From the NCBI GenBank assembly GCA_035236585.1, contig CP141133.1:42921729-42985728 (forward strand): a DNA stretch of 64,000 bases. Reading direction: 5' to 3'. The number at the start of each line of letters is the position of its first letter. Within the stretch, counting starts at the first letter, position 1. Below, piece after piece: positions 17,322-52,394 of this stretch. The position numbers and the translations under genes are program-made. Below the pieces are notes generated by a model. That model was not told the origin of the DNA, ran no database searches, and worked only from the letters and a program-made list of their open reading frames with translations. The stretch is from Warburgia ugandensis (lineage: Eukaryota > Streptophyta > Magnoliopsida > Canellales > Canellaceae).

Positions 17322-17326
17322 AGATG
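17322..17326. other. Target-site duplication of element 2, right copy (AGATG)
   Basis: It matches 12505-12509 exactly. Removing the element and one copy rejoins a normal satellite box (CTAGAGATGGGTGATGCCTAACC). Confidence 0.88.
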
Positions 17327-19287: not shown

Positions 19288-19615
19288 GATGGCACAATGG
19301 TTACGCGGCACAGATTAGTTTTGGATTGAGGGGGTGTCATTATCAAAATGACCCCCTATGTTTTAAATATCTTCTTCTCTCTCTCTTCCTTTTATTTTTT
19401 TGACCAGTGAGGGGCAACACCTACCCTTTTCTGGCACAGGCATGATGGTGTGATGGCACAATGGTTACGCGGCACAGATTAGTTTTGGATTGAGGGGGTG
19501 TCGTTATCAAAATGACCCCCTATGTTTTAAATCTCTTCTTCTCTCTCTCTTCCTTTTATTTTTTTGACCGGTGAGGGGCAGCACCTACCCTTTTCTAGCA
19601 CAGGCATGATGGTGA
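19288..19615 (+). repeat. Recent local tandem duplication, 2 x 164 bp
   Basis: GATGGCACAATGGTTACGCGG begins at 19288 and again at 19452, and the two 164-bp copies differ at only a few positions (for example TCATT/TCGTT and AAATATC/AAATCTC). They are far more alike than typical neighbouring monomers here, so this is a single-monomer duplication younger than its surroundings. Confidence 0.88.
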
Positions 19616-21540
19616 TCCAATGCTGCCTCAGTGCCAGAGGGAGGGGATGTCATTATCAAAACGACTACCTGCACATTGAATCTCTTCTTCTTAGTCTATT
19701 TTTCTCTTCTTTTTTTTCTTACCAGAGAAGGGTGGTACCTACCCTTTTTGGTGAGGCATTGATGTAGTGTCAGAGGGAGGTTGTGTCATTATCAAAATGA
19801 CCACTTCCATTTTAAATCTCACCTTCTCTCTCTTTTGTTTTATTTTTTTACTGGAGAGGGGCAGTGACTATCCTTTTTCAGCGCACACAGTGGTGACGCA
19901 ACACTAATGCAGTGTCCGAGGGAAGGGGTGTCTTAATCAAAACACCCCCTACATTTTGAATCTCTTATTTTGTTTATTTATTTTTTATTTTTACTAGAGA
20001 GGGGTGTTGCCTACCCTTTTCCCTCCTGGACAAAGTGTTAACACAACACTGACACAATGTCGAAGTATGGGGGTGTCGTTATAAAAATGACCCTTGCATT
20101 TTTAATCTCTTATTCACTCACTTTTTTTTTTTGCCCAGAGAGGGGTGGTGCCTACCCATTTTCAGCATAGACATAGGGGTGACGTGGTTCTGCCACAGTG
20201 TCAGAGGGAGGGGGTGTCGTTATCCAAATGACCGGCTGCATTTGGATTATCTTCTTCTTCTTCTTTGATAGGAGATAGGCGACGCCTAACCTTTTCCATT
20301 GCAAACATGATGGTGATGCATCGTTGACCTAGTGTTGGAGGGAGGGGCTGGCATCATCAAAAAGGCCACCTGCTTTTTGAATCTCTTTTCTCCCACTCAT
20401 TTTTTTTTTTATTTGGCTAGAGATGGGCTATAGCTACCCTTTTCCAGCATAGGCATGGAGGAGACACATCACTGGTGTAGTGTCAGATGTAGGGAGTGTC
20501 ATTATTAAAATGACCGCCTACTTTTTGACTCTCTTCACCTTTCTCTTTTTTTTCACTAGAGAGGGGCGTCGCCTTCCCTTTTTTGGCATACACACTATGG
20601 TAATGCAGTGCTAATGCAATGTTGGTGGGAGGTGGTGTCATTATCAAAACAACCGCCTTGGTCTTGAATCTCTTCTTCTAGCTTCTTTTTTTTTTTTATG
20701 ACCGGAGAGAGGCGGTGCCTACCGTTTTTAGGCATAGTCAAGGTGGTGATGAAGTGTTGACACATTGTCAGTGTGAGGGGGTGTTGCTATCAAAATAAGC
20801 CCCTACGTTTTGAATCTCCTCTGCTCTCTCTCTCTCTCTATTTTTTTTCTTTTGACAAGAGAGGGGCGACGCCTACCATTTTCCAAGGTAGACACTATGG
20901 TGAGGCAGCATCGAAGCAGTGTCAGAGGGAGGGGGTGTAATTATCAAAATGACACCCTGCCATTGAATCTCTTCTTCTCTCTCTTTTATTTCTTTTGAGT
21001 AAAGTGGAGCATCACCTACTCTTTTCCGTCAAAAAGATGGTGCTGACGCAAAATTGCTACCATGTCGGTGGGAGGTGTTGTTATCAAAATGACCTCGTGC
21101 ATTTTAAATCTCTTCTTTTCACCCCTTTTTTTCTTATCTTTTTTACCATAGAGGGGCGGCTCCTACCGTTTTTGGCTACATGGTAGTTTCGCAGTGGTGA
21201 TGCAGGGCTAACGCAATGCCCGTGTGAGGGGGTGTTGTTATCAAAATGACCCCTTACATTTTCAAACTCTTCTTCTCTCCCTCCTTTTATTTATGATCGA
21301 AGAGGTGCGACACCTACCCTTTTCCTGTGCAGACACAATGGTGAAGCAAGGCTGACACAATGTCGGACTGTGGGGGTGTTCTTATTAAAATGACCACATG
21401 CATTTTGCATCCCTTCTTCTCTCCCATTTTTTTACCTGAGAGGGGCAGGCTGCACCTACCCTTTTCCAGCGCAAACATAGTGGTGATGCAATATCGAAGG
21501 GAGGGGGCCTGTTATCAAAATGACCCCCTTCATTTTGAAT

Positions 21541-21544
<4 letters not shown>

Positions 21545-21590
<46 letters not shown>
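21545..21590 (+). repeat. (CT)n microsatellite in a satellite monomer
   Basis: About 23 CT repeats expand the pyrimidine tract that every monomer carries after its GAATCTCTTCT box. Neighbouring monomers have only 4-8 repeats. Confidence 0.9.
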
Positions 21591-21594
<4 letters not shown>

Positions 21595-23120
21595 TAGTGA
21601 GGAGCAGCGCCTACCCTTTTTTGGCATAGACAAGATGTGGACCCAACGCTAACATAGTGTTGAAGTAAAGGGTTGTCGTTGTCAAAACAGGCCCCTGCAT
21701 TTTGAATCACTTCTTCTCCCCCTTTTTTTCTTTTCATTGGAGAGCCATGGCCCCTACCCTTTTCGACATAGACATGGTGGTGACATGGCAGTCATGTGGC
21801 ACTGAGCAGTGTTGGAGGGAGGGGTGCCATTATCAAAATAATCCCCTACATTTTGAATCTCTTTTTCTCTCTCTCCCCCCCCCTTTTTTTTTTACTGGAG
21901 AGTGGCAGTGCTTATCCTTTCCTGCCATAGACATAATGGTAACGCTATGTTGATGTATTGTCAGAGGGAGTGGGCATCATTATCAAAATGATCCCCTACA
22001 TTTTAAATATCTTCTCACTTTTTTTCTTTTTTTTTTTGACCGAATATGGGAAGCGAGTACCCCTTTCTAACACAGACACAGTGGTGGCGTGGTACTAACA
22101 AAGTGTCCAAGTGAGGAGGTGTCGTTATCAAAATGACCAGCAGTGTTTTGAATTTCTTCTTCTCTCTTTTTTTCATTTCTTTTCGGGCAGAAACGTAGTG
22201 GTGACACTTTGCTCGGAGGGAGGCGGTGTCATTATCAAAATGATCCCCTCGTTTTGAATCTCTTCTCTCTCTCTCTCTCTATTTTTTTTTACTAGAAAGG
22301 GGTGGTGCCTACCCTTTTTCAATGCAAACATGGTGGTGATGTGGCATTGATGCAATGTCAGAGGGAGGGCGTGCTGTAATCAAAATGACCCTTTGTGTTT
22401 GCATCTCTTCTTCTCTCTCTCTTATTTTTTTATTTGAGAGGGGTGATGCCTAACCTTTTTCGATGCAACACAATGGTGATATAGCACTGGCGCAGTGTCA
22501 GAGGGTGGGGGTATCTTTATCAAAACTACCCCCTGTGTTTTGAGTCTCTTCTTGTCTCTCTATCCTTTGTGATCAAAGAGGGGCGGCATCAACCCTTTCA
22601 ACGAAGGCACAATGGCAACGCGGTACTGATGCAATGTTAAAGGGAGGGGTTGTCGTTTTCAAAATGACCTCCTATGTTTTGATTCTCTTCCTCTCTCTCT
22701 CTCTAATTTTTTTTTTATTGGAGATGGGCGACACCTACCCCCTTCCGTCATAGACATGGTGGTGATGCGGCACTGATGTAGTGTTAGAGGGAGGGGGTGT
22801 CTTTATCAAAATGACCCCATGCATTTTGAATCCCCTCTTCTTTCTTTTCTTTTTTTCATTTTTGTTAATGGAAGAGGGGCGGCGCCTACCCTTTTTTGAT
22901 GCAAACATGGTGGCTGTGCGGTCGTCATGTGGTGCTAATGCAATTTCGAATTGAGGTGGTGTCACTATCAAAATGACTCCATCTATTTTAAATCTCTTCT
23001 TCTCTCTCACTCTCACTCTCTCTCTCTTATTTTTTTTGGTTGGTGACGGTCGGTGCCTAACCTTTTCCAGCGTAGGCACGGTGGTGATGTGGCACTGCCT
23101 CAATGTTGGAGGGAGGGGGT

Positions 23121-23984
23121 GTCATTATCAAAACAACCCCTTACATATTGAATCTCTTCTTCTCACTCCCTTTTTTTCTTTTTTCTTTTCACTAGAGAGG
23201 GGCAACACCTGCCCTTTTCCAGCGCAGACATAGTGGTGACGCAGCCTTAACGTAGCGTCAAAGGGAGGGGGTGTGATTATCAAATGACCCCCTTCATTTT
23301 GAACCTCTTCTTCTCTCTATTATTTTTTTTTATAGGAGAGGAGCAGTGCCTACACTTTTTCTGCATAGACAAGATGTGCACATATTGTTGACTTAGTGTC
23401 AGAGTAAGGGTTTGGCGGAGTGGCAGCTACCCTTTTTCAGCATAGACATAGTGGTGACATGGCAGTGAAGCGGCGTTGAGCTGTGTCGGAGGGAGAGGAT
23501 GCCATTACCAAAATGACCCCCTACATTTTGAATCTGTTCTTCTCTCTTTTTTTATTGACTAGGGAGGGGCGACACCTACCCTTTTCTAGTGCAGACACTA
23601 TAATGACTCGGTGCTGACGTAGTGTCGAAGGGAGGGGTGCCATTATCAAAATGACCCCCTGCATTTCGAATCTCTTCTTCTCTCCCTTTTTTTCTTTTTT
23701 TCTTTTGACTGGATATGGGAAGTGACTACCCCTTTCCGGCATGGGCATAGTGGTGGTGCGGCACTAACACAGCATCCGAGTGAGGGGGTGTCGTTATCAA
23801 AATGACCCTCTGTGTTTTGAATATGTTTTTCTCTCTCTTTTTTAGTTTTTTTACCTGACCGGGGCGGCGCCTACCCTTTTCTAGTGTATATGTGGTGGTG
23901 ACACTGCACTAACGAAGTGTCAGAGGGTGGGGGTGTCATTATCAAAACGATCTCGTCGTTTTGAATCTCTTCTTCTTCTTCTCT

Positions 23985-24018
<34 letters not shown>

Positions 24019-24331
24019 ATTAGAGAGGGGTGGTGCCTACACTTTTTGGAACTGACATGATGGTGACGCGACATTGATGCATTGTCAGGAGGGGGTGTTG
24101 TTATCAAAATGACTCCTTGTGTTTGCATCTCTTCTTCTTTCTCACTGTTTTTTTACTTGAGTGGGGCAGTGCCTACCCTCTTCTTCTTTTTTTCATAGAA
24201 GAGGGGCAGCACCAATCCTTTTCAAGTAAAGATGCAATGGTGATGTGGCATTGAAGCAGTGTTAGAGGGAGGGCATGACATTTTCAAAATGACCCCCTAT
24301 TCTTTGATTCTCTTCTTCCTCTCCTTCTTCT

Positions 24332-24362
<31 letters not shown>

Positions 24363-25259
24363 GCTTTTTTTTGTTTTTTGTTTTCACCAGAGAGGGGCGA
24401 CACATACCCTTTTCCATCGGAGACATGGTGCAGGCGCGATACTGATGTAGTGTGAAAGGGAGGGGTTGTCGTTATCAAAATGATCCCCTGCAGTTTGAAT
24501 CTCCTATTCTCTCTCTTGTTTTCAGGTTTTCTTAATTGAAGAGGGGCAACGCCAGTGCTGATGTAGTTTCAGATTGAAGGGTTGTTATTATCAAAATGAC
24601 GCCTTGTGTTTTCAAACTCTTCTTCTCTCTCTCTTTTATTTTTTTTGACCAGTGAGGGGTGGCACCTACCCTTTTCTGGTGCAGGTACAGTGGTGATGCA
24701 GTGCTTCTTCAATGTCAGAGGGAGGGGTGTCATTACCAAAATGACCCCCTGCGTAATGAATCTCTTCTTCCCACTCCCTTTTTCTACCTTTTTTTTTTTA
24801 AGAGAGAGGGGCAGTGCCTACCCTTTTCCTGCACAGACATAGTGGTGATGCAGCCATGACACAGTGTCGGAGGGAGGCGGTGTCATTATCAAAATGACCC
24901 CCTTGGTTTTGAACCTCTTCATCAATCTAATTTTTTTTTTTTTTTACCCAGAGAGGAGTAGTGCCTACCTTTTTCAGCATAGACAAGATGTCGACATAGC
25001 ATTAACATAGTGTCGGAGTAAGGGGAGCCATGGTGCCTACCCTTTTTTGGTGTAATGGCGTGATGCAGAGCTGAGCAGTGTTAGAAGGGGGGTGCCATTA
25101 TCAGAAGGACCCCCTATATTTTGAATCTCTTCTTCTCTCTTTTCTTTTCTTTTGACTAGAGAGGGGTGGTGCCTACCCTTTTTCAGCGTAGACATGGTGG
25201 TGACATATGTTGGAGGGAGGGGATGTCATTATAAAATGACCCCTTGCATTTTGAATCTC

Positions 25260-25322
<63 letters not shown>

Positions 25323-26512
25323 CCAGAGAGGGGCAGCACCTACTCTTTTCGTTGCACACATGGTGGTGACGTGACATTGATGCAATGTCAGAGGGAGTGG
25401 TGTCATTATCAAAGTGACCCAGTGCTTATTTAATCTCTTCTTCTGTCTATTTTTTTTATTTGACCAGAGAGGGGTGGCATGGGGCCTGCCCTTTTCCCTC
25501 ATAGACAAGGTGCTACCACAGTGTTGATGTTGTGTTGGAGTATGGGGGTGTCATTATCAAAATGACTCATTGCATTTTGAATATCTTATTCGCACAATTG
25601 ATTTTTTCTTTGAGTAGAGTGGGGCGGTGCTTACCCTTTTTCGGCACAAACATGGAGGAGATGCGATGTTGATGTAGTGTTGGAGGTAGGAGGTGTCATT
25701 ATCTAAACGATCCCCTCCATTTTGAATCTCTTCTCCTCCTTTCTTTTTTTACCATAGAGGGGCGGTGCCTACCCTTTCTCAATGCAGTCATGGTGGTGAT
25801 ATGGTGCTGAGGCAGTATCGGTGTGAGGGGGTGTTGTTATCAAAACAAGCCCCTGCATTTTGAATCTCTTCTTCTCTCTCATTTTTTTCTTTTGACTGGA
25901 GAGGAGCGGCACCTACCCTTTTCAAGGGCAGACATGGTGGTGAGGCACCATTGAAGCAGTATCGGAGGGAGGGGCTGTCGTTATCAAAATGACACCATCC
26001 CTTTGAATCTCTTCTTCTCTCTCTATATTCTCTTTTCCGGTGTAGGCATGGTGGTGATGTAGCGTTGCCTCAATGTTGGAGGGAGGGGGTGTCATTATCA
26101 AAACAACCCCCTGCATATTGAATCTCTTTTTCTCACTCCCTTTTTCTATTTTTCGGTTATCAGAGAGGGGTAGCACCCGACGCTATTCTAGCACAGACAT
26201 AGTGGTGACGCAGCCCTAACGTAGTGTCAGAGGGAGGAACCTTTGTTTTGAATCTCTTATTCTCTCTTCTTCTTTTTTAACCGGAGAGGAGTGGCACTTA
26301 CCCTTTTTCGGCATAGACAAGATGTGGACACAGCACTGACATAATGTCAAAATAAGGAGTTGTCGTTGTGAAAAAGAGCCCCTGCATTTTGAATCTCTTC
26401 TTCTCTCCCTTTTTGTCTTTTGGTGAAGAGGCATGGCACCTACCCTTTTCCAGCATAGACACAGTCGTGACATGGCAGTGATGCAACGCTAAGCAGTGTT
26501 GGAGGGAGGGGT
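23121..26512 (+). repeat. Higher-order repeat unit 1 (3392 bp)
   Basis: First of five tandem copies. Boundaries are set at GTCATTATCAAAACAACCCC followed by TTACATATTGAATC, the point where similarity to later copies starts. It contains about 22-24 monomers, several shortened in a fixed way (about 23400, 24180, 25020, 26030, 26225), and the shortened monomers recur in all copies. It carries the GAAAAAGAGCCCC variant at about 26368 and a private TTTTGGTGAAGAGG at about 26419. Confidence 0.95.
25264..25321 (+). repeat. (CT)n tract of unit 1, ~58 bp
   Basis: A CT run follows GAATCTCACCTT and precedes TGCCAGAGAGG. The equivalent tract occurs once per higher-order unit with a different length each time. 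Confidence 0.9.
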
Positions 26513-28651
26513 GTCATTATCAAAACAACCCCTTACATATTGAATCTCTTCTTCTCACTCCCTTTTTTTCTTTTTTCTTTTCACTAGAGAGGGGCAACAC
26601 CTGCCCTTTTCCAGCGCAGACATAGTGGTGACGCAGCCTTAACGTAGCGTCAAAGGGAGGGGGTGTGATTATCAAATGACCCCCTTCATTTTGAACCTCT
26701 TCTTCTCTCTATTTTTTTTTTTTATAGGAGAGGAGTAGTGCCTACACTTTTTCTGCATAGACAAGATGTGCACATATTGTTGACTTAGTGTCAGAGTAAG
26801 GGTTTGGCGGAGTGGCAGCTACCCTTTTTCAGCATAGACATAGTGGTGACATGGCAGTGAAGCGGCGTTGAGCTGTGTCGGAGGGAGAGGATGCCATTAC
26901 CAAAATGACCCCCTACATTTTGAATCTGTTCTTCTCTCTTTTTTTATTGACTAGGGAGGGGCGACACCTACCCTTTTCTAGTGCAGACACTATAATGACT
27001 CGGTGCTGACGTAGTGTCGAAGGGAGGGGTGCCATTATCAAAATGACCCCCTGCATTTCGAATCTCTTCTTCTCTCCCTTTTTTTCTTTTTTTCTTTTGA
27101 CTGGATATGGGAAGTGCCTACCCCTTTCCGGCATGGGCATAGTGGTGGTGCGGCATTAACACAGCATCCGAGTGAGGGGGTGTCGTTATCAAAATGACCC
27201 TCTGTGTTTTGAATATGTTTTTCTCTCTCTTTTTTAGTTTTTTTACCTGACCGGGGCGGCGCCTACCCTTTTCTAGTGTATATGTGGTGGTGACACTGCA
27301 CTAACGAAGTGTCAGAGGGTGGGGGTGTCATTATCAAAACGATCTCGTCGTTTTGAATCTCTTCTTCTTCTTCTCTTTATCTCTCTCTCTCTCTCTCTCT
27401 CTCTCTTGATTAGAGAGGGGTGGTGCCTACACTTTTTGGAACTGACATGATGGTGACGCGACATTGATGCATTGTCAGGAGGGGGTGTTGTTATCAAAAT
27501 GACTCCTTGTGTTTGCATCTCTTCTTCTTTCTCACTGTTTTTTTACTTGAGTGGGGCAGTGCCTACCCTCTTCTTCTTTTTTTCATAGAAGAGGGGCAGC
27601 ACCTATCCTTTTCAAGTAAAGATGCAATGGTGATGTGGCATTGAAGCAGTGTTAGAGGGAGGGCATGACATTTTCAAAATGACCCCCTATTCTTTGATTC
27701 TCTTCTTCCTCTCCTTCTTCTTCTTCTTCTCTCCCTCTCTCTCTCTCTCTCTCTGCTTTTTTTTATTTTTTTTTTTCACCAGAGAGGGGCGACACATACC
27801 CTTTTCCATCGGAGACATGGTGCAGGCGCGATACTGATGTAGTGTGAAAGGGAGGGGTTGTCGTTATCAAAATGATCCCCTGCAGTTTGAATCTCCTATT
27901 CTCTCTCTTGTTTTCAGGTTTTCTTAATTGAAGAGGGGCAACGCCAGTGCTGATGTAGTTTCAGATTGAAGGGTTGTTATTATCAAAATGACGCCTTGTG
28001 TTTTCAAACTCTTCTTCTCTCTCTCTTTTATTTTTTTTGACCAGTGAGGGGTGGCACCTACCCTTTTCTGGTGCAGGTACAGTGGTGATGCAGTGCTTCT
28101 TCAATGTCAGAGGGAGGGGTGTCATTACCAAAATGACCCCCTGCGTAATGAATCTCTTCTTCCCACTCCCTTTTTCTACCTTTTTTTTTTTAAGAGAGAG
28201 GGGCAGTGCCTACCCTTTTCCTGCACAGACATAGTGGTGATGCAGCCATGACACAGTGTCGGAGGGAGGCGGTGTCATTATCAAAATGACCCCCTTGGTT
28301 TTGAACCTCTTCATCAATCTAATTTTTTTTTTTTTTTACCCAGAGAGGAGTAGTGCCTACCTTTTTCAGCATAGACAAGATGTCGACATAGCATTAACAT
28401 AGTGTCGGAGTAAGGGGAGCCATGGTGCCTACCCTTTTTTGGTGTAATGGCGTGATGCAGAGCTGAGCAGTGTTAGAAGGGGGGTGCCATTATCAGAAGG
28501 ACCCCCTATATTTTGAATCTCTTCTTCTCTCTTTTCTTTTCTTTTGACTAGAGAGGGGTGGTGCCTACCCTTTTTCAGCGTAGACATGGTGGTGACATAT
28601 GTTGGAGGGAGGGGATGTCATTATAAAATGACCCCTTGCATTTTGAATCTC

Positions 28652-28696
<45 letters not shown>

Positions 28697-29887
28697 CCAG
28701 AGAGGGGCAGCACCTACTCTTTTCGTTGCACACATGGTGGTGACGTGACATTGATGCAATGTCAGAGGGAGTGGTGTCATTATCAAAGTGACCCAGTGCT
28801 TATTTAATCTCTTCTTCTGTCTATTTTTTTTATTTGACCAGAGAGGGGTGGCATGGGGCCTGCCCTTTTCCCTCATAGACAAGGTGCTACCACAGTGTTG
28901 ATGTTGTGTTGGAGTATGGGGGTGTCATTATCAAAATGACTCATTGCATTTTGAATATCTTATTCGCACAATTTATTTTTTCTTTGAGTAGAGTGGGGCG
29001 GTGCTTACCCTTTTTCGGCACAAACATGGAGGAGATGCGATGTTGATGTAGTGTTGGAGGTAGGAGGTGTCATTATCTAAACGATCCCCTCCATTTTGAA
29101 TCTCTTCTCCTCCTTTCTTTTTTTATCATAGAGGGGCGGTGCCTACCCTTTCTCAATGCAGTCATGGTGGTGATATGGTGCTGAGGCAGTATCGGTGTGA
29201 GGGGGTGTTGTTATCAAAACAAGCCCCTGCATTTTGAATCTCTTCTTCTCTCTCATTTTTTTCTTTTGAATGGAGAGGAGCGGCACCTACCCTTTTCAAG
29301 GGCAGACATGGTGGTGAGGCACCATTGAAGCAGTATCGGAGGGAGGGGCTGTCGTTATCAAAATGACACCATCCCTTTGAATCTCTTCTTCTCTCTCTAT
29401 ATTCTCTTTTCCGGTGTAGGCATGGTGGTGATGTAGCGTTGCCTCAATGTTGGAGGGAGGGGGTGTCATTATCAAAACAACCCCCTGCATATTGAATCTC
29501 TTTTTCTCACTCCCTTTTTCTATTTTTCGGTTATCAGAGAGGGGTAGCACCCGACGCTATTCTAGCACAGACATAGTGGTGACGCAGCCCTAACGTAGTG
29601 TCAGAGGGAGGAACCTTTGTTTTGAATCTCTTATTCTCTCTTCTTCTTTTTTTAACCGGAGAGGAGTGGCACTTACCCTTTTTCGGCATAGACAAGATGT
29701 GGACACAGCACTGACATAATGTCAAAATAAGGAGTTGTCGTTGTGAAAACAGCCCCTGCATTTTGAATCTCTTCTTCTCTCCCTTTTTGTCTTTTGACTG
29801 AAGAGGCATGGCACCTACCCTTTTCCAGCATAGACACAGTCGTGACATGGCAGTGATGCAACGCTAAGCAGTGTTGGAGGGAGGGGT
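26513..29887 (+). repeat. Higher-order repeat unit 2 (3375 bp)
   Basis: Second tandem copy, almost base-for-base the same as unit 1. Differences include GAAGTGCCTACC (about 27114, shared with unit 5), CGGCATTAAC (about 27150), a CT tract of only ~40 bp at 28655-28694, TTTATCATAG (about 29122, shared with unit 3) and GAAAACAGCCCC (about 29744). Confidence 0.95.
28655..28694 (+). repeat. (CT)n tract of unit 2, ~40 bp
   Basis: Equivalent of 25264-25321, shorter by about nine dinucleotides. This accounts for most of the length difference between units 1 and 2. Confidence 0.88.
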
Positions 29888-32025
29888 GTCATTATCAAAA
29901 CAACCCCTTACATATTGAATCTCTTCTTCTCACTCCCTTTTTTTCTTTTTTCTTTTCACTAGAGAGGGGCAACACCTGCCCTTTTCAGTAAGCAGACATA
30001 GTGGTGACGCAGCCTTAACGTAGCGTCAAAGGGAGGGGGTGTGATTATCAAATGACCCCCTTCATTTTGAACCTCTTCTTCTCTCTATTTTTTTTTTTAT
30101 AGGAGAGGAGCAATGCCTACACTTTTTCTGCATAGACAAGATGTGCACATATTGTTGACTTAGTGTCAGAGTAAGGGTTTGGCGGAGTGGCAGCTACCCT
30201 TTTTCAGCATAGACATAGTGGTGACATGGCAGTGAAGCGGCGTTGAGCTGTGTCGGAGGGAGAGGATGCCATTACCAAAATGACCCCCTACATTTTGAAT
30301 CTGTTCTTCTCTCTTTTTTTATTGACTAGGGAGGGGCGACACCTACCCTTTTCTAGTGCAGACACTATAATGACTCGGTGCTGACGTAGTGTCGAAGGGA
30401 GGGGTGCCATTATCAAAATGACCCCCTGCATTTCGAATCTCTTCTTCTCTCCCTTTTTTTCTTTTTTTCTTTTGACTGGATATGGGAAGTGACTACCCCT
30501 TTCCGGCATGGGCATAGTGGTGGTGCGGCACTAACACAGCATCCGAGTGAGGGGGTGTCGTTATCAAAATGACCCTCTGTGTTTTGAATATGTTTTTCTC
30601 TCTCTTTTTTAGTTTTTTTACCTGACCGGGGCGGCGCCTACCCTTTTCTAGTGTATATGTGGTGGTGACACTGCACTAACGAAGTGTCAGAGGGTGGGGG
30701 TGTCATTATCAAAACGATCTCGTCGTTTTGAATCTCTTCTTCTTCTTCTCTTTATCTCTCTCTCTCTCTCTCTCTCTCTTGATTAGAGAGGGGTGGTGCC
30801 TACACTTTTTGGAACTGACATGATGGTGACGCGACATTGATGCATTGTCAGGAGGGGGTGTTGTTATCAAAATGACTCCTTGTGTTTGCATCTCTTCTTC
30901 TTTCTCACTGTTTTTTTACTTGAGTGGGGCAGTGCCTACCCTCTTCTTCTTTTTTTCATAGAAGAGGGGCAGCACCTATCCTTTTCAAGTAAAGATGCAA
31001 TGGTGATGTGGCATTGAAGCAGTGTTAGAGGGAGGGCATGACATTTTCAAAATGACCCCCTATTCTTTGATTCTCTTCTTCCTCTCCTTCTTCTTCTTCT
31101 TCTTCTCTCCCTCTCTCTCTCTCTCTCTCTGCTTTTTTTTGTTTTTTTTTTTCACCAGAGAGGGGCGACACATACCCTTTTCCATCGGAGACATGGTGCA
31201 GGCGCGATACTGATGTAGTGTGAAAGGGAGGGGTTGTCGTTATCAAAATGATCCCCTGCAGTTTGAATCTCCTATTCTCTCTCTTGTTTTCAGGTTTTCT
31301 TAATTGAAGAGGGGCAACGCCAGTGCTGATGTAGTTTCAGATTGAAGGGTTGTTATTATCAAAATGACGCCTTGTGTTTTCAAACTCTTCTTCTCTCTCT
31401 CTCTTTTATTTTTTTTGACCAGTGAGGGGTGGCACCTACCCTTTTCTGGTGCAGGTACAGTGGTGATGCAGTGCTTCTTCAATGTCAGAGGTAGGGGTGT
31501 CATTACCAAAATGACCCCCTGCGTAATGAATCTCTTCTTCCCACTCCCTTTTTCTACCTTTTTTTTTTAAGAGAGAGGGGCAGTGCCTACCCTTTTCCTG
31601 CACAGACATAGTGGTGATGCAGCCATGACACAGTGTCGGAGGGAGGCAGTGTCATTATCAAAATGACCCCCTTGGTTTTGAACCTCTTCATCAATCTAAT
31701 TTTTTTTTTTTTTTACCCAGAGAGGAGTAGTGCCTACCTTTTTCAGCATAGACAAGATGTCGACATAGCATTAACATAGTGTCGGAGTAAGGGGAGCCAT
31801 GGTGCCTACCCTTTTATGGTGTAATGGCGTGATGCGAGTGAGCAAGGTGTTAGAAGGGGGTGCCATTATCGAAGGACCCCTATATTTTGAATCTCTTCTT
31901 CTCTCTTTTCTTTTCTTTTGACTAGAGAGGGGTGGTGCCTACCCTTTTTCAGCGTAGACATGGTGGTGACATATGTTGGAGGGAGGGGATGTCATTATAA
32001 AATGACCCCTTGCATTTTGAATCTC

Positions 32026-32062
<37 letters not shown>

Positions 32063-33254
32063 CCAGAGAGGGGCAGCACCTACTCTTTTCGTTGCACACA
32101 TGGTGGTGACGTGACATTGATGCAATGTCAGAGGGAGTGGTGTCATTATCAAAGTGACCCAGTGCTTATTTAATCTCTTCTTCTGTCTATTTTTTTTATT
32201 TGACCAGAGAGGGGTGGCATGGGCCCTGCCCTTTTCCCTCATAGACAAGGTGCTACCACAGTGTTGATGTTGTGTTGGAGTATGGGGGTGTCATTATCAA
32301 AATGACTCATTGCATTTTGAATATCTTATTCGCACAATTTATTTTTTCTTTGAGTAGAGTGGGGCGGTGCTTACCCTTTTTCGGCACAAACATGGAGGAG
32401 ATGCGATGTTGATGTAGTGTTGGAGGTAGGAGGTGTCATTATCTAAACGATCCCCTCCATTTTGAATCTCTTCTCCTCCTTTCTTTTTTTATCATAGAGG
32501 GGCGGTGCCTACCCTTTCTCAATGCAGTCATGGTGGTGATATGGTGCTGAGGCAGTATCGGTGTGAGGGGGTGTTGTTATCAAAACAAGCCCCTGCATTT
32601 TGAATCTCTTCTTCTCTCTCATTTTTTTCTTTTGACTGGAGAGGAGCGGCACCTACCCTTTTCAAGGGCAGACATGGTGGTGAGGCACCATTGAAGCAGT
32701 ATCGGAGGGAGGGGCTGTCGTTATCAAAATGACACCATCCCTTTGAATCTCTTCTTCTCTCTCTATATTCTCTTTTCCGGTGTAGGCATGGTGGTGATGT
32801 AGCGTTGCCTCAATGTTGGAGGGAGGGGGTGTCATTATCAAAACAACCCCCTGCATATTGAATCTCTTTTTCTCACTCCCTTTTTCTATTTTTCGGTTAT
32901 CAGAGAGGGGTAGCACCCGACGCTATTCTAGCACAGACATAGTGGTGACGCAGCCCTAACGTAGTGTCAGAGGGAGGAACCTTTGTTTTGAATCTCTTAT
33001 TCTCTCTTCTTCTTTTTTTAACCGGAGAGGAGTGGCACTTACCCTTTTTCGGCATAGACAAGATGTGGACACAGCACTGACATAATGTCAAAATAAGGAG
33101 TTGTCGTTGTGAAAAAGAGCCCCTGCATTTTGAATCTCTTCTTCTCTCCCTTTTTGTCTTTTGACTGAAGAGGCATGGCACCTACCCTTTTCCAGCATAG
33201 ACACAGTCGTGACATGGCAGTGATGCAACGCTAAGCAGTGTTGGAGGGAGGGGT
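29888..33254 (+). repeat. Higher-order repeat unit 3 (3367 bp)
   Basis: Third copy. Private changes include CTTTTCAGTAAGCAGAC (about 29980) and a cluster at 31835-31875 (GATGCGAGTGAGCAAGGTG and lost bases in G/C runs). It shares TTTTATGGTG with unit 4, GAAAAAGAGCCCC with unit 1 and TTTATCATAG with unit 2. Its CT tract is the shortest, ~33 bp at 32029-32061. Confidence 0.95.
32029..32061 (+). repeat. (CT)n tract of unit 3, ~33 bp
   Basis: Shortest of the five equivalent CT tracts. Confidence 0.88.
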
Positions 33255-35377
33255 GTCATTATCAAAACAACCCCTTACATATTGAATCTCTTCTTCTCAC
33301 TCCCTTTTTTTCTTTTTTCTTTTCACTAGAGAGGGGCAACACCTGCCCTTTTCCAGCGCAGACATAGTGGTGACGCAGCCTTAACGTAGCGTCAAAGGGA
33401 GGGGGTGTGATTATCAAATGACCCCCTTCATTTTGAACCTCTTCTTCTCTCTATTTTTTTTTTTTATAGGAGAGGAGCAGTGCCTACACTTTTTCTGCAT
33501 AGACAAGATGTGCACATATTGTTGACTTAGTGTCAGAGTAAGGGTTTGGCGGAGTGGCAGCTACCCTTTTTCAGCATAGACATAGTGGTGACATGGCAGT
33601 GAAGCGGCGTTGAGCTGTGTCGGAGGGAGAGGATGCCATTACCAAAATGACCCCCTACATTTTGAATCTGTTCTTCTCTCTTTTTTTATTGACTAGGGAG
33701 GGGCGACACCTACCCTTTTCTAGTGCAGACACTATAATGACTCGGTGCTGACGTAGTGTCGAAGGGAGGGGTGCCATTATCAAAATGACCCCCTGCATTT
33801 CGAATCTCTTCTTCTCTCCCTTTTTTTCTTTTTTTCTTTTGACTGGATATGGGAAGTGACTACCCTTTTCCGGCATGGGCATAGTGGTGGTGCGGCACTA
33901 ACACAGCATCCGAGTGAGGGGGTGTCATTATCAAAATCACCCTCTGTGTTTTGAATATGTTTTTCTCTCTCTTTTTTAGTTTTTTTACCTGACCGGGGCG
34001 GCGCCTACCCTTTTCTAGTGTATATGTGGTGGTGACACTGCACTAACGAAGTGTCAGAGGGTGGGGGTGTCATTATCAAAACGATCTCGTCGTTTTGAAT
34101 CTCTTCTTCTTCTTCTCTTTATCTCTCTCTCTCTCTCTCTCTCTTGATTAGAGAGGGGTGGTGCCTACACTTTTTGGAACTGACATGATGGTGACGCGAC
34201 ATTGATGCATTGTCAGGAGGGGGTGTTGTTATCAAAATGACTCCTTGTGTTTGCATCTCTTCTTCTTTCTCACTGTTTTTTTACTTGAGTGGGGCAGTGC
34301 CTACCCTCTTCTTCTTTTTTTCATAGAAGAGGGGCAGCACCTATCCTTTTCAAGTAAAGATGCAATGGTGATGTGGCATTGAAGCAGTGTTAGAGGGAGG
34401 GCATGACATTTTCAAAATGACCCCCTATTCTTTGATTCTCTTCTTCCTCTCCTTCTTCTTCTTCTTCTTCTCTCTCTCTCTCTCTCTCGCTTTTTTTGTT
34501 TTTTTTTTCACCGAGAGAGGGCGACACATACCCTTTTCCATCGGAGACATGGTGCAAGCGCGATACTGATGTAGTGTGAAAGGGAGGGGTTGTCGTTATC
34601 AAAATGATCCCCTGCAGTTTGAATCTCCTATTCTCTCTCTTGTTTTCAGGTTTTCTTAATTGAAGAGGGGCAACGCCCGATCTTGATGTAGTTTCAGATT
34701 GAAGGGTTGTTATTATCAAAATGACACCTTGTGTTTTCAAACTCTTCTTCTCTCTCTCTTTTATTTTTTTTGACCAGTGAGGGGTGGCACCTACCCTTTT
34801 CTGGTGCAGGTACAGTGGTGATGCAGTGCTTCTTCAATGTCAGAGGGAGGGGTGTCATTACCAAAATGACCCCCTGCGTAATGAATCTCTTCTTCCCACT
34901 CCCTTTTTCTACCTTTTTTTTTTAAGAGAGAGGGGCAGTGCCTACCCTTTTCCTGCACAGACATAGTGGTGATGCAGCCATGACACAGTGTCGGAGGGAG
35001 GCGGTGTCATTATCAAAATGACCCCCTTGGTTTTGAACCTCTTCATCAATCTAATTTTTTTTTTTTTTTACCCAGAGAGGAGTAGTGCCTACCTTTTTCA
35101 GCATAGACAAGATGTCGACATAGCATTAACATAGTGTCGGAGTAAGGGGAGCCATGGTGCCTACCCTTTTATGGTGTAATGGCGTGATGCAGAGCTGAGC
35201 AGTGTTAGAAGGGGGGTGCCATTATCAGAAGGACCCCCTATATTTTGAATCTCTTCTTCTCTCTTTTCTTTTCTTTTGACTAGAGAGGGGTGGTGCCTAC
35301 CCTTTTTCAGCGTAGACATGGTGGTGACATATGTTGGAGGGAGGGGATGTCATTATAAAATGACCCCTTGCATTTTG

Positions 35378-35444
<67 letters not shown>

Positions 35445-36636
35445 CCAGAGAGGGGCAGCACCTACTCTTTTCGTTGCACACATGGTGGTGACGTGACATT
35501 GATGCAATGTCAGAGGGAGCGGTGTCATTATCAAAGTGACCCAGTGCTTATTTAATCTCTTCTTCTGTCTATTTTTTTTATTTGACCAGAGAGGGGTGGC
35601 ATGGGGCCTGCCCTTTTCCCTCATAGACAAGGTGCTACCACAGTGTTGATGTTGTGTTGGAGTATGGGGGTGTCATTATCAAAATGACTCATTGCATTTT
35701 GAATATCTTATTCGCACAATTTATTTTTTCTTTGAGTAGAGTGGGGCGGTGCTTACCCTTTTTCGGCACAAACATGGAGGAGATGCGATGTTGATGTAGT
35801 GTTGGAGGTAGGAGGTGTCATTATCTATACGATCCCCTCCATTTTGAATCTCTTCTCCTCCTTTCTTTTTTTACCATAGAGGGGCGGTGCCTACCCTTTC
35901 TCAATGCAGTCATGGTGGTGATATGGTGCTGAGGCAGTATCGGTGTGAGGGGGTGTTGTTATCAAAACAAGCCCCTGCATTTTGAATCTCTTCTTCTCTC
36001 TCATTTTTTTCTTTTGACTGGAGAGGAGCGGCACCTACCCTTTTCAAGGGCAGACATGGTGGTGAGGCACCATTGAAGCAGTATCGGAGGGAGGGGCTGT
36101 CGTTATCAAAATGACACCATCCCTTTGAATCTCTTCTTCTCTCTCTATATTCTCTTTTCCGGTGTAGGCATGGTGGTGATGTAGCGTTGCCTCAATGTTG
36201 GAGGGAGGGGGTGTCATTATCAAAACAACCCCCTGGATATTGAATCTCTTTTTCTCACTCCCTTTTTCTATTTTTCGGTTATCAGAGAGGGGTAGCACCT
36301 GACGCTATTCTAGCACAGACATAGTGGTGACGCAGCCCTAACGTAGTGTCAGAGGGAGGAACCTTTGTTTTGAATCTCTTATTCTCTCTTCTTCTTTTTT
36401 TAACCGGAGAGGAGTGGCACTTACCCTTTTTCGGCATAGACAAGATGTGGACACAAAGATCGACATAATGTCAAAATAAGGAGTTGTCGTTGTGAAAACA
36501 GCCCCTGCATTTTGAATCTCTTCTTCTCTCCCTTTTTGTCTTTTGACTGAAGAGGCATGGCACCTACCCTTTTCCAGCATAGACACAGTCGTGACATGGC
36601 AGTGATGCAACGCTAAGCAGTGTTGGAGGGAGGGGT
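33255..36636 (+). repeat. Higher-order repeat unit 4 (3382 bp)
   Basis: Fourth copy. Private changes include GCCCGATCTTGATG (about 34675), CACCGAGAGAGGGCG (about 34510) and ACACAAAGATCGACAT (about 36452). Its long CT tract starts directly after GAATCT, lacking the ACCTT seen in the other units. Confidence 0.95.
35381..35442 (+). repeat. (CT)n tract of unit 4, ~62 bp
   Basis: Longest of the five equivalent CT tracts; it appears to have absorbed the adjacent ACCTT. Confidence 0.88.
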
Positions 36637-37500
36637 GTCATTATCAAAACAACCCCTTACATATTGAATCTCTTCTTCTCACTCCCTTTTTTTCTTTTTT
36701 CTTTTCACTAGAGAGGGGCAACACCTGCCCTTTTCCAGCGCAGACATAGTGGTGACGCAGCCTTAACGTAGCGTCAAAGGGAGGGGGTGTGATTATCAAA
36801 TGACCCCCTTCATTTTGAACCTCTTCTTCTCTCTATTTTTTTTTTTTATAGGAGAGGAGCAGTGCCTACACTTTTTCTGCATAGACAAGATGTGCACATA
36901 TTGTTGACTTAGTGTCAGAGTAAGGGTTTGGCGGAGTGGCAGCTACCCTTTTTCAGCATAGACATAGTGGTGACATGGCAGTGAAGCGGCGTTGAGCTGT
37001 GTCGGAGGGAGAGGATGCCATTACCAAAATGACCCCCTACATTTTGAATCTGTTCTTCTCTCTTTTTTTATTGACTAGGGAGGGGCGACACCTACCCTTT
37101 TCTAGTGCAGACACTATAATGACTCGGTGCTGACGTAGTGTCGAAGGGAGGGGTGCCATTATCAAAATGACCCCCTGCATTTCGAATCTCTTCTTCTCTC
37201 CCTTTTTTTCTTTTTTTCTTTTGACTGGATATGGGAAGTGCCTACCCCTTTCCGGCATGGGCATAGTGGTGGTGCGGCATTAACACAGCATCCGAGTGAG
37301 GGGGTGTCGTTATCAAAATGACCCTCTGTGTTTTGAATATGTTTTTCTCTCTCTTTTTTAGTTTTTTTACCTGCCCGGGGCGGCGCCTACCCTTTTCTAG
37401 TGTATATGTGGTGGTGACACTGCGCTAACGAAGTGTCAGAGGGTGGGGGTGTCATTATCAAAACGATCTCGTCGTTTTGAATCTCTTCTTCTTCTTCTCT

Positions 37501-37534
<34 letters not shown>

Positions 37535-38768
37535 ATTAGAGAGGGGTGGTGCCTACACTTTTTGGAACTGACATGATGGTGACGCGACATTGATGCATTG
37601 TCAGGAGGGGGTGTTGTTATCAAAATGACTCGTGTTTGCATCTCTTCTTCTTTCTCACTGTTTTTTTACTTGAGTGGGGCAGTGCCTACCCTCTTCTTCT
37701 TTTTTTCATAGAAGAGGGGCAGCACCTATCCTTTTCAAGTAAAGATGCAATGGTGATGTGGCATTGAAGCAGTGTTAGAGGGAGGGCATGACATTTTCAA
37801 AATGACCCCCTATTCTTTGATTCTCTTCTTCCTCTCCTTCTTCTTCTCTCCCTCTCTCTCTCTCTCTCTCTGCTTTTTTTTGTTTTTTTTTTTCACCAGA
37901 GAGGGGCGACACATACCCTTTTCCATCGGAGACATGGTGCAGGCGCGATACTGATGTAGTGTGAAAGGGAGGGGTTGTCGTTATCAAAATGATCCCCTGC
38001 AGTTTGAATCTCCTATTCTCTCTCTTGTTTTCAGGTTTTCTTAATTGAAGAGGGGCAACGCCAGTGCTGATGTAGTTTCAGATTGAAGGGTTGTTATTAT
38101 CAAAATGACGCCTTGTGTTTTCAAACTCTTCTTCTCTCTCTCTTTTATTTTTTTTGACCAGTGAGGGGTGGCACCTACCCTTTTCTGGTGCAGGTACAGT
38201 GGTGATGCAGTGCTTCTTCAATGTCAGAGGGAGGGGTGTCATTACCAAAATGACCCCCTGCGTAATGAATCTCTTCTTCCCACTCCCTTTTTCTACCTTT
38301 TTTTTTTTAAGAGAGAGGGACAGTGCCTACCCTTTTCCTGCACAGACATAGTGGTGATGCAGCCATGACACAGTGTCGGAGGGAGGCGGTGTCATTATCA
38401 AAATGACCCCCTTGGTTTTGAACCTCTTCATCAATCTAATTTTTTGTTTTTTTTACCCAGAGAGGAGTAGTGCCTACCTTTTTCAGCATAGACAAGATGT
38501 CGACATAGCATTAACATAGTGTCGGAGTAAGGGGAGCCATGGTGCCTACCCTTTTTTGGTGTAATGGCGTGATGCAGAGCTGAGCAGTGTTAGAAGGGGG
38601 GTGCCATTATCAGAAGGACCCCCTATATTTTGAATCTCTTCTTCTCTCTTTTCTTTTCTTTTGACTAGAGAGGGGTGGTGCCTACCCTTTTTCAGCGTAG
38701 ACATGGTGGTGACATATGTTGGAGGGAGGGGATGTCATTATAAAATGACCCCTTGCATTTTGAATCTC

Positions 38769-38827
<59 letters not shown>

Positions 38828-40018
38828 CCAGAGAGGGGCAGCACCTACTCTTTTCGTTGCACACATGGTGGTGACGTGACATTGATGCAATGTCAGAGGG
38901 AGCGGTGTCATTATCAAAGTGACCCAGTGCTTATTTAATCTCTTCTTCTGTCTATTTTTTTTATTTGACCAGAGAGGTGTGGCATGGGGCCTGCCCTTTT
39001 CCCTCATAGACAAGGTGCTACCACAGTGTTGATGTTGTGTTAGAGTATGGGGGTGTCATTATCAAAATGACTCATTGCATTTTGAATATCTTATTCGCAC
39101 AATTTATTTTTTCTTTGAGTAGAGTGGGGCGGTGCTTACCCTTTTTCGGCACAAACATGGAGGAGATGCGATGTTGATGTAGTGTTGGAGGTAGGAAGTG
39201 TCATTATCTAAACGATCCCCTCCATTTTGAATCTCTTCTCCTCCTTTCTTTTTTTACCATAGAGGGGCGGTGCCTACCCTTTCTCAATGTAGTCATGGTG
39301 GTGATATGGTGCTGAGGCAGTATCGGTGTGAGGGGGTGTTGTTATCAAAACAAGCCCCTGCATTTTGAATCTCTTCTTCTCTCTCATTTTTTTCTTTTGA
39401 CTGGAGAGGAGCGGCACCTACCCTTTTCAAGGGCAGACATGGTGGTGAGGCACCATTGAAGCAGTATCGGAGGGAGGGGCTGTCGTTATCAAAATGACAC
39501 CATCCCTTTGAATCTCTTCTTCTCTCTCTATATTCTCTTTTCCGGTGTAGGCATGGTGGTGATGTAGCGTTGCCTCAATGTTGGAGGGAGGGGGTGTCAT
39601 TATCAAAACAACCCCCTGCATATTGAATCTCTTTTTCTCACTCCCTTTTTCTATTTTTCGGTTATCAGAGAGGGGTAGCACCCGACGCTATTCTAGCACA
39701 GACATAGTGGTGACGCAGCCCTAACGTAGTGTCAGAGGGAGGATCCTTTGTTTTGAATCTCTTATTCTCCCTTCTTCTTTTTTTAACCGGAGAGGAGTGG
39801 CACTTACCCTTTTTCGGCATAGACAAGATGTGGACACAGCACTGACATAATGTCAAAATAAGGAGTTGTCGTTGTGAAAACAGCCCCTGCATTTTGAATC
39901 TCTTCTTCTCTCCCTTTTTGTCTTTTGACTGAAGAGGCATGGCACCTACCCTTTTCCAGCATAGACACAGTCGTGACATGGCAGTGATGCAACGCTAAGC
40001 AGTGTTGGAGGGAGGGGT
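36637..40018 (+). repeat. Higher-order repeat unit 5 (3382 bp)
   Basis: Fifth and last copy. It shares GAAGTGCCTACC and CGGCATTAAC with unit 2, and GAGCGGTGTC with unit 4. Similarity to the unit start continues only through the shared GTCATTATCAAAACAA and stops at about 40034, where a diverged monomer (TTCCCTACATTTTTAATTTC) follows. The array therefore ends at a whole number of units. Confidence 0.95.
38772..38825 (+). repeat. (CT)n tract of unit 5, ~54 bp
   Basis: Equivalent of the CT tracts in units 1-4. Confidence 0.88.
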
Positions 40019-40872
40019 GTCATTATCAAAACAATTCCCTACATTTTTAATTTCTTTTTCTCTCTCTTTTTGTTTTTTATTGGACGGGGGGCACCTACTC
40101 TTTCCTGGCGTAAACAAAATCGTGATGCGATGTTGATGCAGTGTCGGATGGAGTGGGTGTCATTATCAAAATGACCCCTTGCATTTTGAATGGATGGATA
40201 TGGGAAGCGACTACCCATTTCCAACATAGACATGGTGGTGGCGTGGCGCTAACATAGTGTTTGAGTGAGGGAGTGTCATTATCAAAATGACCACCTATGT
40301 TATGAATCTCTTCTTCTCTCCTTTTTTTCATTTCTTTTCTGGCACAAACGTGGTGGTGACACTACATTTACGAAGTGTTGGAGGGAGGGGGTGTCATTAT
40401 CAAAACAATCAACTCGTTTTGAATGTCTTCTTCTTCTTCTCTCTCTCTCTTAGATTTTTTGATCAGAGAGGGGTGGTGCTTACCCTTTTTTAGCACAGAC
40501 ACGGTGGTGATGTGGCATTGACACAGTGCTAGAGGGAGGGGGTACTGTTATCAAAATGACCCCCTATGTTTGCATATCTTCTTCTTCTTCTTCTTCTTCT
40601 CTCTCTCTCTCTCTCTTATTTTTTGATTTGAGAGGGGCAGTGACTACCCATTTCTAGCACAGCATGATGGTGATGCAACACTGATGCAATGTGGGAGGGT
40701 GGGGGCATATTTATCAAAATTACCACATGTGTTTTGAATCTCTTCTTGTCTCTCTATTTTTTTTATTGAAGAGGGGAGGAACCAATCCTTTTCAGCGAAG
40801 ACGCAATGGTGATGCCATGCTGATGCAGTGTTGAGGGAGGGTTTTTCGTTTTCAAAACGACCTCTGCGTTTT

Positions 40873-40916
40873 GATTCTCTTCTTCTTCTTCTTCTTCTTC
40901 TTCTTCTTCTTCTTCT

Positions 40917-40953
<37 letters not shown>
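40873..40953 (+). repeat. Compound (CTT)n(CT)n microsatellite
   Basis: About 16 CTT repeats run into about 15 CT repeats within one monomer's pyrimidine tract. All 80 bases are pyrimidine on the + strand. Confidence 0.9.
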
Positions 40954-40956
<3 letters not shown>

Positions 40957-41128
40957 TTGAATCTCCTCTCCTTTCTCTTTTTGCTTTCATTTTTTTAAGG
41001 GAAGATGGGTGATGCCTACCTTTTTTTCGTTGCAAACACAATGGTGGGGCAGTGGCCATGTGGTGCTAATGCAGTTTTGCATTGAGGGGGTGTAGTTATC
41101 AAAATGACCCCCATTATTTTAAATCTTT

Positions 41129-41130
<2 letters not shown>

Positions 41131-41177
<47 letters not shown>
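41131..41177 (+). repeat. (CT)n microsatellite
   Basis: About 23 CT repeats in the pyrimidine tract of a monomer, directly downstream of the compound run at 40873. Confidence 0.9.
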
Positions 41178-41180
<3 letters not shown>

Positions 41181-44100
41181 TTTATGTTTTTTGACCTATG
41201 AGGGGGGCTGACTACCCTTTTCCGGCGTAGGGAAGGTGGTGATGCAGCACTACCTCAATATTGGAGGGAGGGGGTGTCATTATCAAAACAACCCGCTATG
41301 TATTGAATCACTTCTTCTCACTCCCTTTTTTCTTTCCTTTTTTACTAGAGAGGGTTGGCACCTGCTCTTTTCTAGTGCAAACATAGTGGTGATGCAGCCC
41401 TAACGTTGCGTCGAAGGGAGGGGGTGTGGTTATCAAATGACCCCTTCATTTTCAACCTCTTCTTCCCTCTCTCTCTCTCTCTCTCTATTTTTTTTTTTTA
41501 CTAGAGAGGAGCAGCACCTACACTTTTTTGTCATAGATAAGATGTGGACACAACACTGACTTGGTGTTGGAGTAAGGGTGTGTCATTGTCAAAATAACCC
41601 CCTACGTTTTCAATCTCTTCTTCTCCCCCTTTTTTTTCTTTTGACTGGAGAGACATGGTGGGGCCTACCCTTTTTCGGCATAGACATAGTGGTGACATGG
41701 TGATGAAGTGGCATTGAGCAGTGTCGAAGGGAGGGGGTGCCATTACAAAAATGACCCCCTATGTTTTGAATCTCTTCTTCTCTCTCTCTTTTTCTTTTGA
41801 TTGGAGAGGGGCGGCACCTACCCCTTTCTGGCATAAACACTATGGTAATGCAGTGTGGATGCAGTGTCGAAGGGAGGGGTGTCATTATCAAAATGAGGCC
41901 CTGTATTTTGAATCTCTTCTTCACTCCCTTTTTTTCCTTTTCCTTTTAATCAGATATGGGAACTGAGTACCTCGTTCTTGCGTGGACATGGTGGTGGTGC
42001 TGCACTAGCACAGTATCTGAGTAAGGGGGTGTTGTTATCGAAATGACCCCTGTGTTTTGAATCTATTTTTCTCTCCTTTTCTTTTCTTACCCAATTGGGG
42101 CAGCACTTACCCTTTTCTAGTGCAAATGTGGTGGTGACATTGTGCTAATAAAGTGTCAGAGGGAGGGGGTGTCATTATCAAAACGATCCCCTCATGTTGA
42201 ATCTCTTCTTCTTCTTGGCTCTCTCTCTCTCTTGACTAGAGAGGGATGGTGCCTGCCCTTTTTTGGCACAAACACAGCGGTGACGCGACGCTGACGCATT
42301 GTCAGAGGGGGCTACCATTATCAAAATGACCCCCTGTGTTTGCATTTCTTCCTTTCTCTCTCTTCTTTTTTTTACTTGAGTGGGGCAGTGGCTACCCTTT
42401 TCCAGCGTTGCACGATGGTGACATGACACTAGCGCAGTGTCGAAGGGTGGGGGTGTCTTTGTCAAAACTACCTCCGATGTTTTGAAACTCTACTTGTCTC
42501 TCTATCTTTTTTTTTTATCGAAGAGGGGCAGCACCTATCCTTTTCAGCAAAGGCTCAACGGTAACGCAGTGCTAATGCAGTGTTAGAGGGAGGGTGTGTC
42601 GATTTCAAAATGACCCCCTATGCTTTGATTCTCTTCTTCTCTCTTCTCCTTTTTTTTTACCAAAGAGGGGCAATGCATACCCTTTTCCGTTAGAGACACG
42701 GTGCTGACGCGACTTTGATGTAGTGCTAGAGGGAGGGGGTGTCATTATCAAAATGACCCCCTGCATTTTGAATCTCCCCTTCTCTCTCTTTTTTTCTCCT
42801 TTTTTTAAGTGAAGAGGGGGCAATCTCCCCCTTTTGGATGCAAACACAGTGGTGATGCAGTGTTGATGCAGTTTCGGATTGAGGGGGTGTCGTTATCAAA
42901 ATGACCCCTTATGTTTTCAATCTCTTCTTCTCTCTCTCTTTTATTTTTTTGGACCACTGATGAGTGACACCTACCCTTTTCCAGCGCAGGCATGGTGGTG
43001 ATACGGTGCTACCTTAGTGTCAGATAGAGGGTGTCATTATCAAAACGACCCCCTATGTATTGAATCTCTTCTTCTCGCTCCCTTTTTCTCTCTTTTTGTT
43101 TTTTTGATGAGAGAGGGGTAGTGCCTACCCTTTTCCAGCACAAATACATTGGGGATGCAATATCAGAGGAAGGGGGTGTCATTATTAAAGTGACCACCTT
43201 CGTTTTGAACATCTTCTTCTGTCTATTTCTTTTACTAGAGAGGAGGGATGCCTACTCTTTTTTGGCACAGCCAAGATGTGGACACAACGCTGACGTGGTG
43301 ATTGTCAAAACAACCCCTGCATTTTGAATCTCTTCTTCTACCCCAATTTTTTTGTTTGATCGAAGAGGACCCTTTTTTAGCATAGACAAGATGGTGACAT
43401 GGCAGTGACGTGACATTTAGTAGTGTCGGAGGGAGGAGTGCCATTATCAAATGGCCCCCTATATTTTGAATCTCTTCTTCTCTCTTTTCTTTTCTTTTTG
43501 ACCAAAGAGGCAGTGCCTACCCTTTTTCAGCACAGACACGGTGGTGATGTGGCACTGACGTAGTGTTGGAGGGAGGGAGTGTCATTATAAAGTGACCCCT
43601 TGCATTTTAAATCTCTCACTCTCTCTCTCTTTTGTTTTTTTTTTTTTTTACTAGACAGAGGCGCACACTCTTTTCCGTTGACACGACTTTGATGCAGTGT
43701 CAGAGGGAGGTGTGTCAGTATAAAAATGACCATGTGTTTTTTGAATCCCTTCTTTTGTCTAATTTTTTTTCTACTAGAGAGGGTCGGCGCCTACCCTTTT
43801 CCCTTGTAGACAAGGTGATGCCACAACGCTGACGTTGGGTGGAAGTATGGGTATGTCGTTATCAAAATGACTCGATGCATTTTGAATCTCTTATTCGCAG
43901 ACTTCTTTTATTTTACCAGAGAGGGGCAATGCCTACCCTTTTTTAGTGCAAGCATGGAGGAGACACGACACTGTTGCAATGCTGGATGTAGAGGGTGTCA
44001 ATATCTAAATGACCTCCTCTTTTTTTAATCCCTTCTCTATTCTTTTTTTTTTACCAGAGAGGGGTAATGCCTACCCTTCTTAGTGCAATCATGTTGGTGA

Positions 44101-44304
44101 CGTGGTGTTGATGCAACGTCGATGTGAGGGGGTGTTGTTATCAAAATTACCACCTGCTTTTTGAATCTCTTCTTCTCTCTCCCTGTTTTTTTTCTCTTGA
44201 TCGGAGAGGGGCAGCGCCTACCCCTTGCTAGGGTAAACATGGTGATAAGGCACCACCGAAGTAGTATCTAAGGGAGGGGTTGTCATTATCAAAATGACAC
44301 CCTC

Positions 44305-52389: not shown

Positions 52390-52394
52390 GCAGC
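52390..52394. other. Target-site duplication of element 3, right copy (GCAGC)
   Basis: Pairs with GTAGC at 45812-45816, one mismatch (T/C). Confidence 0.78.

Follow-up and report, generated by a model that had tools for sequence, protein, structure and literature searches.

The human higher-order repeats (HORs) described include a unit of 34 monomers on the Y chromosome (PMC8997354) and one of 52 on chromosome 21 (PMC12385485), together with a 23/25-mer. Unequal exchange and break-induced replication (BIR) are both treated as models for satellite arrays, and BIR is described as strongly mutagenic, giving frameshifts as well as substitutions (PMC8997354). HORs are also formed by poplar arrays situated away from CENH3 (PMC12046899), so that a HOR alone does not imply a centromere. 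The origins of HORs are usually hidden by later homogenisation. In the array described here, the founding junction is still legible along with both parental sequences, because the array is young, with a mean of 0.43% between its units.

The window, i.e. the whole stretch of 64,000 bases of Warburgia DNA that was analyzed, consists mostly of one satellite. All 325 profile matches lie on the plus strand, together covering 43,606 of the 64,000 bases, and the median monomer length is 143 bp (192 near-full matches outside units 2-5). Within this one-strand array of a roughly 143-bp satellite, five adjoining units of 3.37-3.39 kb occupy positions 23121-40018, a region that is probably a young HOR in an old methylated plant satellite block, and as such a product of DNA turnover. 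The units, all on the plus strand, are located at 23121-26512 (unit 1, 3392 bp), 26513-29887 (unit 2, 3375 bp), 29888-33254 (unit 3, 3367 bp), 33255-36636 (unit 4, 3382 bp) and 36637-40018 (unit 5, 3382 bp), the copy number of five being that of the assembly. A 30-base junction string has exactly five matches, at 23121, 26513, 29888, 33255 and 36637; these are the positions that an earlier note on this DNA had given for it, and the spacings reported there (3392, 3375, 3367 and 3382, with a final unit of 3382) agree with the unit lengths. The 20-base string without TTACATATTG has 11 matches, and only the 30-base form is specific to the units. In a self-BLAST comparison, the unit diagonals reach over 23101-40078 at 98.0-98.6%, while the identity between units with gaps left out is 98.4-99.6% for all ten pairs. 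The enzyme ApaLI has a single site in every one of the five units, and one further site in the rest of the window.

The profile found 26, 25, 24, 26 and 25 matches in units 1 to 5, respectively, corresponding to 24-25 monomer segments each, of which every unit has 20 close to full length. In units 1 and 4 the TC-rich monomer appears as two matches, in unit 3 the profile missed one short segment, and the pair at 24095-24273 could count as one or two segments. This count corrects the earlier figure of about 22-24 monomers per unit. The accompanying view that so many monomers are unusual is not supported, as human units reach 34 (PMC8997354) and 52 monomers (PMC12385485); next to these and the 23/25-mer, about 25 is unexceptional. 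When all 282 near-full monomers were compared with each other, those at equivalent positions in different units had a mean identity of 99.5% (194 pairs out of 200; six pairs of the TC-rich monomer, whose start was called differently, were filed with the remaining cross-unit pairs by the offset rule). The mean was 80.3% for the other cross-unit pairs (n = 3806), 80.3% for pairs inside one unit (n = 950) and 79.7% for pairs outside the units (n = 16471). The region thus has what defines a HOR, i.e. more than two copies (five in the assembly) of adjoining units built from distinct monomers in one orientation (325 of 325 matches on the plus strand), with an identity between units far above that within them. 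This agrees with the earlier description of near-identical units with divergent inner monomers; the opposite outcome, units no more alike than random monomers, did not hold in the monomer alignment (99.5% against about 80%). The placement of a young HOR within older, diverged satellite is likewise upheld by the unit and monomer identities and the site variants.

No sign of a coding or RNA function emerged from the analysis. Six-frame translation gave three reading frames of at least 120 amino acids within the units, all on the minus strand, and the one that was searched was without a relative at E ≤ 0.01. Neither a tRNA nor an Rfam family at gathering score was detected across the window. None of four exact monomer strings was found in the main text of the published papers searched, nor was one exact 20-base string found in viral contigs.

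Both ends of the array were aligned with its four inner junctions to obtain the anatomy of the boundaries. On the left side of the exchange, each inner junction equals the right end of the array (Z), and on the right side it equals the left end (A), so that the boundaries along the array read L/A, four times Z/A, and Z/R. The left edge of unit 1 and the right edge of unit 5 carry the parental L/A and Z/R sequences, respectively. Position 23121, which had been listed as a unit junction, is therefore a parental end, as is 40018, and the chimeric sites are the four inner ones only. These four are one identical chimera, save for private changes of units 1 and 3 some way off the tract, which argues that one event made the unit and that later units were copied from it. 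In this one founding exchange, the end of Z became linked to the start of A, about 3.38 kb away, in register with the monomer. The tract in which it fell is 21 bp long, with a left parental copy at 23116-23136 (plus strand) that is identical to the right parental copy at 40014-40034 (plus strand) and is present also at the four inner junctions; it starts with the end bases of one monomer and runs about 17 bases into the following one. Around it, the two parental stretches agree at 211 of 278 aligned bases (75.9%). For comparison, 3000 in-register pairs were sampled at random from 146 dimers: exact runs of at least 21 bases took up only 0.63% of their aligned positions and were present in 7.9% of the pairs. 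For random pairs ignoring the monomer boundary, the corresponding values were 0.7% of positions and 4.2% of pairs. Such low frequencies mark the tract used by the exchange as an unusually long stretch of identity.

Given a similarity of only 76% between the parental stretches over the 278 aligned bases, the founding step would best be read as a short-identity event, be it a template switch, microhomology-type repair or illegitimate unequal exchange. Exchange acting on a multi-monomer block, as had been proposed earlier, is well supported for the founding step by the one chimeric junction seen four times and by the parental ends, although with parents of such low similarity it was no exchange between near-identical repeats; for the step to five copies, the data do not discriminate between unequal exchange and rolling-circle or break-induced amplification. 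Pairs of closer similarity existed about 2.97 kb apart, i.e. 23119-23270 versus 26089-26237 (90.3%) and 22959-23118 versus 25976-26088 (88.5%). A purely homology-driven exchange would not predict that these were left unused, which counts against such an exchange. The two adjoining monomers at 22959-23270, at the left edge of the array, and their counterparts at 25976-26237, near the end of unit 1, look like the trace of a duplication preceding the present unit.

From two near-identical 3.4-kb copies, out-of-register recombination or BIR could have produced five in a short time, after which some exchange between the units would have taken place. A quick rise followed by such exchange fits the pattern of private and shared substitutions and the failed four-gamete pairs. 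Outside microsatellites and clusters, isolated private substitutions number 4, 2, 4, 6 and 10 in units 1 to 5 (26 in total), and 7 of the 26 are of C-to-T type at CG or CHG sites. Six sites are common to two units, in five pairings (2+5 twice, 3+4, 4+5, 2+3 and 1+3). With 26 private substitutions against six shared sites in five groupings, the hierarchy among the units is slight, and the four-gamete test fails for eight pairs of these six sites. These conflicting groupings suggest later exchange between units, although they could instead reflect haplotype switches in the assembly or repeat mutation, six sites being few. The length of a TC tract (alignment columns 2154-2179) differs from unit to unit. 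The mean divergence of 0.43% was obtained with clusters and microsatellites removed, whereas with the clusters kept the values reach up to 1.6%. At rates of 7e-9 and 1.5e-8 per site per year, the mean translates into an age of about 0.14-0.31 My, which is no more than an order of magnitude, given the bias introduced by methylation and by exchange among the units.

Besides the isolated changes, there are 11 clusters of at least three linked private changes, with units 3 and 4 having five each and unit 5 one. Six of them, three each in units 3 and 4, stand away from microsatellites, four lie at microsatellite or short-indel sites, and one in unit 4 (columns 1249-1260) adjoins a CT tract and was masked as microsatellite zone in the divergence and private-substitution counts. 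With their shifted bases and shortened homopolymers, the clusters of units 3 and 4 suggest uncorrected long-read errors in inner copies, where short reads map poorly. They hold much of the surplus divergence of these two units, and part of the apparent difference between units is thus probably sequencing error. It is doubtful, to the point of being improbable, that the six clusters and the one by the CT tract are real and constitute the scar of error-prone BIR that made those two units. If this were true, the array would record both a short-identity founding event and a mutagenic mode of amplification. The trinucleotide CAG/CTG is present in all six microsatellite-free clusters and in the CT-tract one. 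We do not regard this as significant (7 of 11 clusters against 3.3 expected, p 0.02, for one of 32 trinucleotide pairs, with AGC/GCT at p 0.015), and keep it as a lead for methylation-linked base-calling error.

The HOR is flanked by older, diverged satellite of about 143 bp on the plus strand, at 17321-23115 on the left and 40035-45816 on the right, as identified by profile matches and monomer identities. Relative to a strict-majority consensus, transitions affect 39% of the cells at CG, 28% at CHG, 11% at CHH and 9% at A/T, while transversions amount to 6-8% across the three C contexts. An undecayed consensus, which favors decay by construction, gave the same order (40, 28 and 8% for CG, CHG and CHH). 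The order CG > CHG > CHH is that expected from plant cytosine methylation. This pattern suggests long-standing methylated heterochromatin, in which the background monomers would have diverged largely through C-to-T loss at CG and CHG sites, and it is from this kind of divergence that the array appears to have been methylated for long. Of the changes counted, 3243 of 6328 with the undecayed consensus and 1868 of 6098 with the strict one are transitions at CG or CHG, so that methylation decay accounts for about a third to half of the difference between monomers and consensus. Half-monomers ending at consensus columns 72-86 were seen at 1396-1470, 2921-3001, 18410-18484, 24467-24554, 60806-60875 and 61787-61858, and matching ones beginning at columns 73-79 at e.g. 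23417, 25031 and 59183. These ends lie near G-rich boxes, which suggests deletions between boxes.

Two LTR elements interrupt the satellite. The Ty3/gypsy-type element around 4139-12318 has LTRs about 90% alike and broken gag, protease and RNase H frames, these families having been identified on three of four separately searched pieces. The RNase H piece matches plant retroelement proteins: among the 120 matches listed of at least 7997 scored, none is above 74% identity, and the organism is given for 16, i.e. 15 flowering plants and one bacterium. By the indirect evidence of these relatives and of the order of decay in the satellite, the host is very probably a flowering plant. The satellite flanking this element resumes out of register (monomer column 113, then 37), so the site has been rearranged or the edges are misplaced. 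The second element, at 45817-52389 (strand not assigned), also has LTRs about 90% alike, and is flanked by a 5-bp target duplication with one mismatch, as judged by eye; the two pieces of it that were searched gave no protein family. In addition, 12517-17320 is a 4.8-kb AT-rich (34% GC) non-satellite stretch whose right edge by eye resembles an LTR end, and no partner LTR was found among the self-comparison matches listed.

The second LTR element splits copy A of an older 2.2-kb duplication, which must therefore predate the insertion. Copy A, with its first part at 44281-45816 in the right flank and its remainder at 52390-53106, and copy B at 53107-55326 (probably extending to 55468, according to the junction alignment), all on the plus strand, are 90.5% alike (1982 of 2190 aligned bases). 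By eye, the exchange in this repeat lies at about monomer columns 28-44, where conservation over a 17-column stretch is highest. The two halves of a 164-bp doublet at 19286-19614 agree at 159 of 164 positions (97%), and a diagonal of 71% connects 21274-24179 with 41168-44077, most other long satellite diagonals being at 65-68% among the best 45 of 3056. Given these layers, amplification of the satellite has been repeated and local. A tract of about 21 bp of identity within DNA about 76% similar was the site of a founding exchange, and the same array holds an older, decayed example. A common recombination hotspot box was considered and ruled out, as the three junctions examined differ: by eye, the junction of the young array coincides with the start of the monomer, that of the 2.2-kb repeat probably lies at columns 28-44, and that of the 164-bp doublet is elsewhere, with hardly any identity.

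Much of the above would also be expected if a 3.38-kb circle had been excised by the same Z-to-A exchange, copied by rolling-circle replication and reinserted at its origin by homology as a multi-unit product. The same L/A, four times Z/A, Z/R anatomy would result, as would a star-like relation between units, which the isolated private changes resemble, and circles of satellite DNA from hundreds of bases to more than 8 kb are reported for all nine plant satellite families in one survey (PMC2543021). We nevertheless hold this route to be unlikely, as it requires a return to the exact site of origin and no feature of the sequence demands a circle; rolling-circle intermediates were not seen, by the account of that same survey (PMC2543021).

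Far less probable still is that there are fewer real units, one of which was repeated by the assembler. The five copies do rest on the assembly, and the clusters of units 3 and 4 (six without a microsatellite and the one by the CT tract) resemble raw long-read errors, but every unit has isolated substitutions (2-10) and a TC-tract length of its own, and the outer ends are unlike the inner junctions, which is what a genuine duplication calls for. We give just as little credence to amplification of the unit through better binding of the centromere machinery, as has been proposed for human alpha satellite, which would be compatible with the other mechanisms. The layering of young in old is like that described for centromere arrays (PMC8997354), but the window has no more than five units, the satellite around them is old and decayed at CHG too, with LTR elements whose LTRs have diverged by about 10%, and non-centromeric arrays of Salicaceae are described as forming HORs as well (PMC12046899). 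Our preferred reading remains a HOR founded by one short-identity exchange and amplified locally.

With human alpha-satellite HORs, as described in PMC8997354, the array shares near-identical multi-monomer units, divergent inner monomers and disordered older satellite alongside. It differs in having five copies in the window and a monomer of about 143 bp, against 171 bp in alpha satellite; judged by its monomer length (median 143 bp rather than the approximately 171 bp of primates) and its plant host, the Warburgia array works like alpha satellite but is not alpha satellite. The plant HORs of Arabidopsis (CEN178) and poplar (Palv156 and the non-centromeric Palv148) are likewise described as mostly one-strand arrays with block duplications (PMC12046899, PMC10199239). 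Those HORs were called pairwise by software with a short minimum (three monomers by default, two in the poplar paper), whereas the present array, compared by description, is one long unit in five tandem copies. In Meloidogyne nematodes, monomers that are otherwise divergent are also described to exchange within a tract of about 20 bp, with the junctions in conserved boxes of about 20 bp (PMC3694981). The three junctions here are, in contrast, without a common box, so no single recombinogenic motif can be claimed. The kind of satellite turnover is ordinary, and what stands out here is that the founding exchange is legible to within 21 bases.
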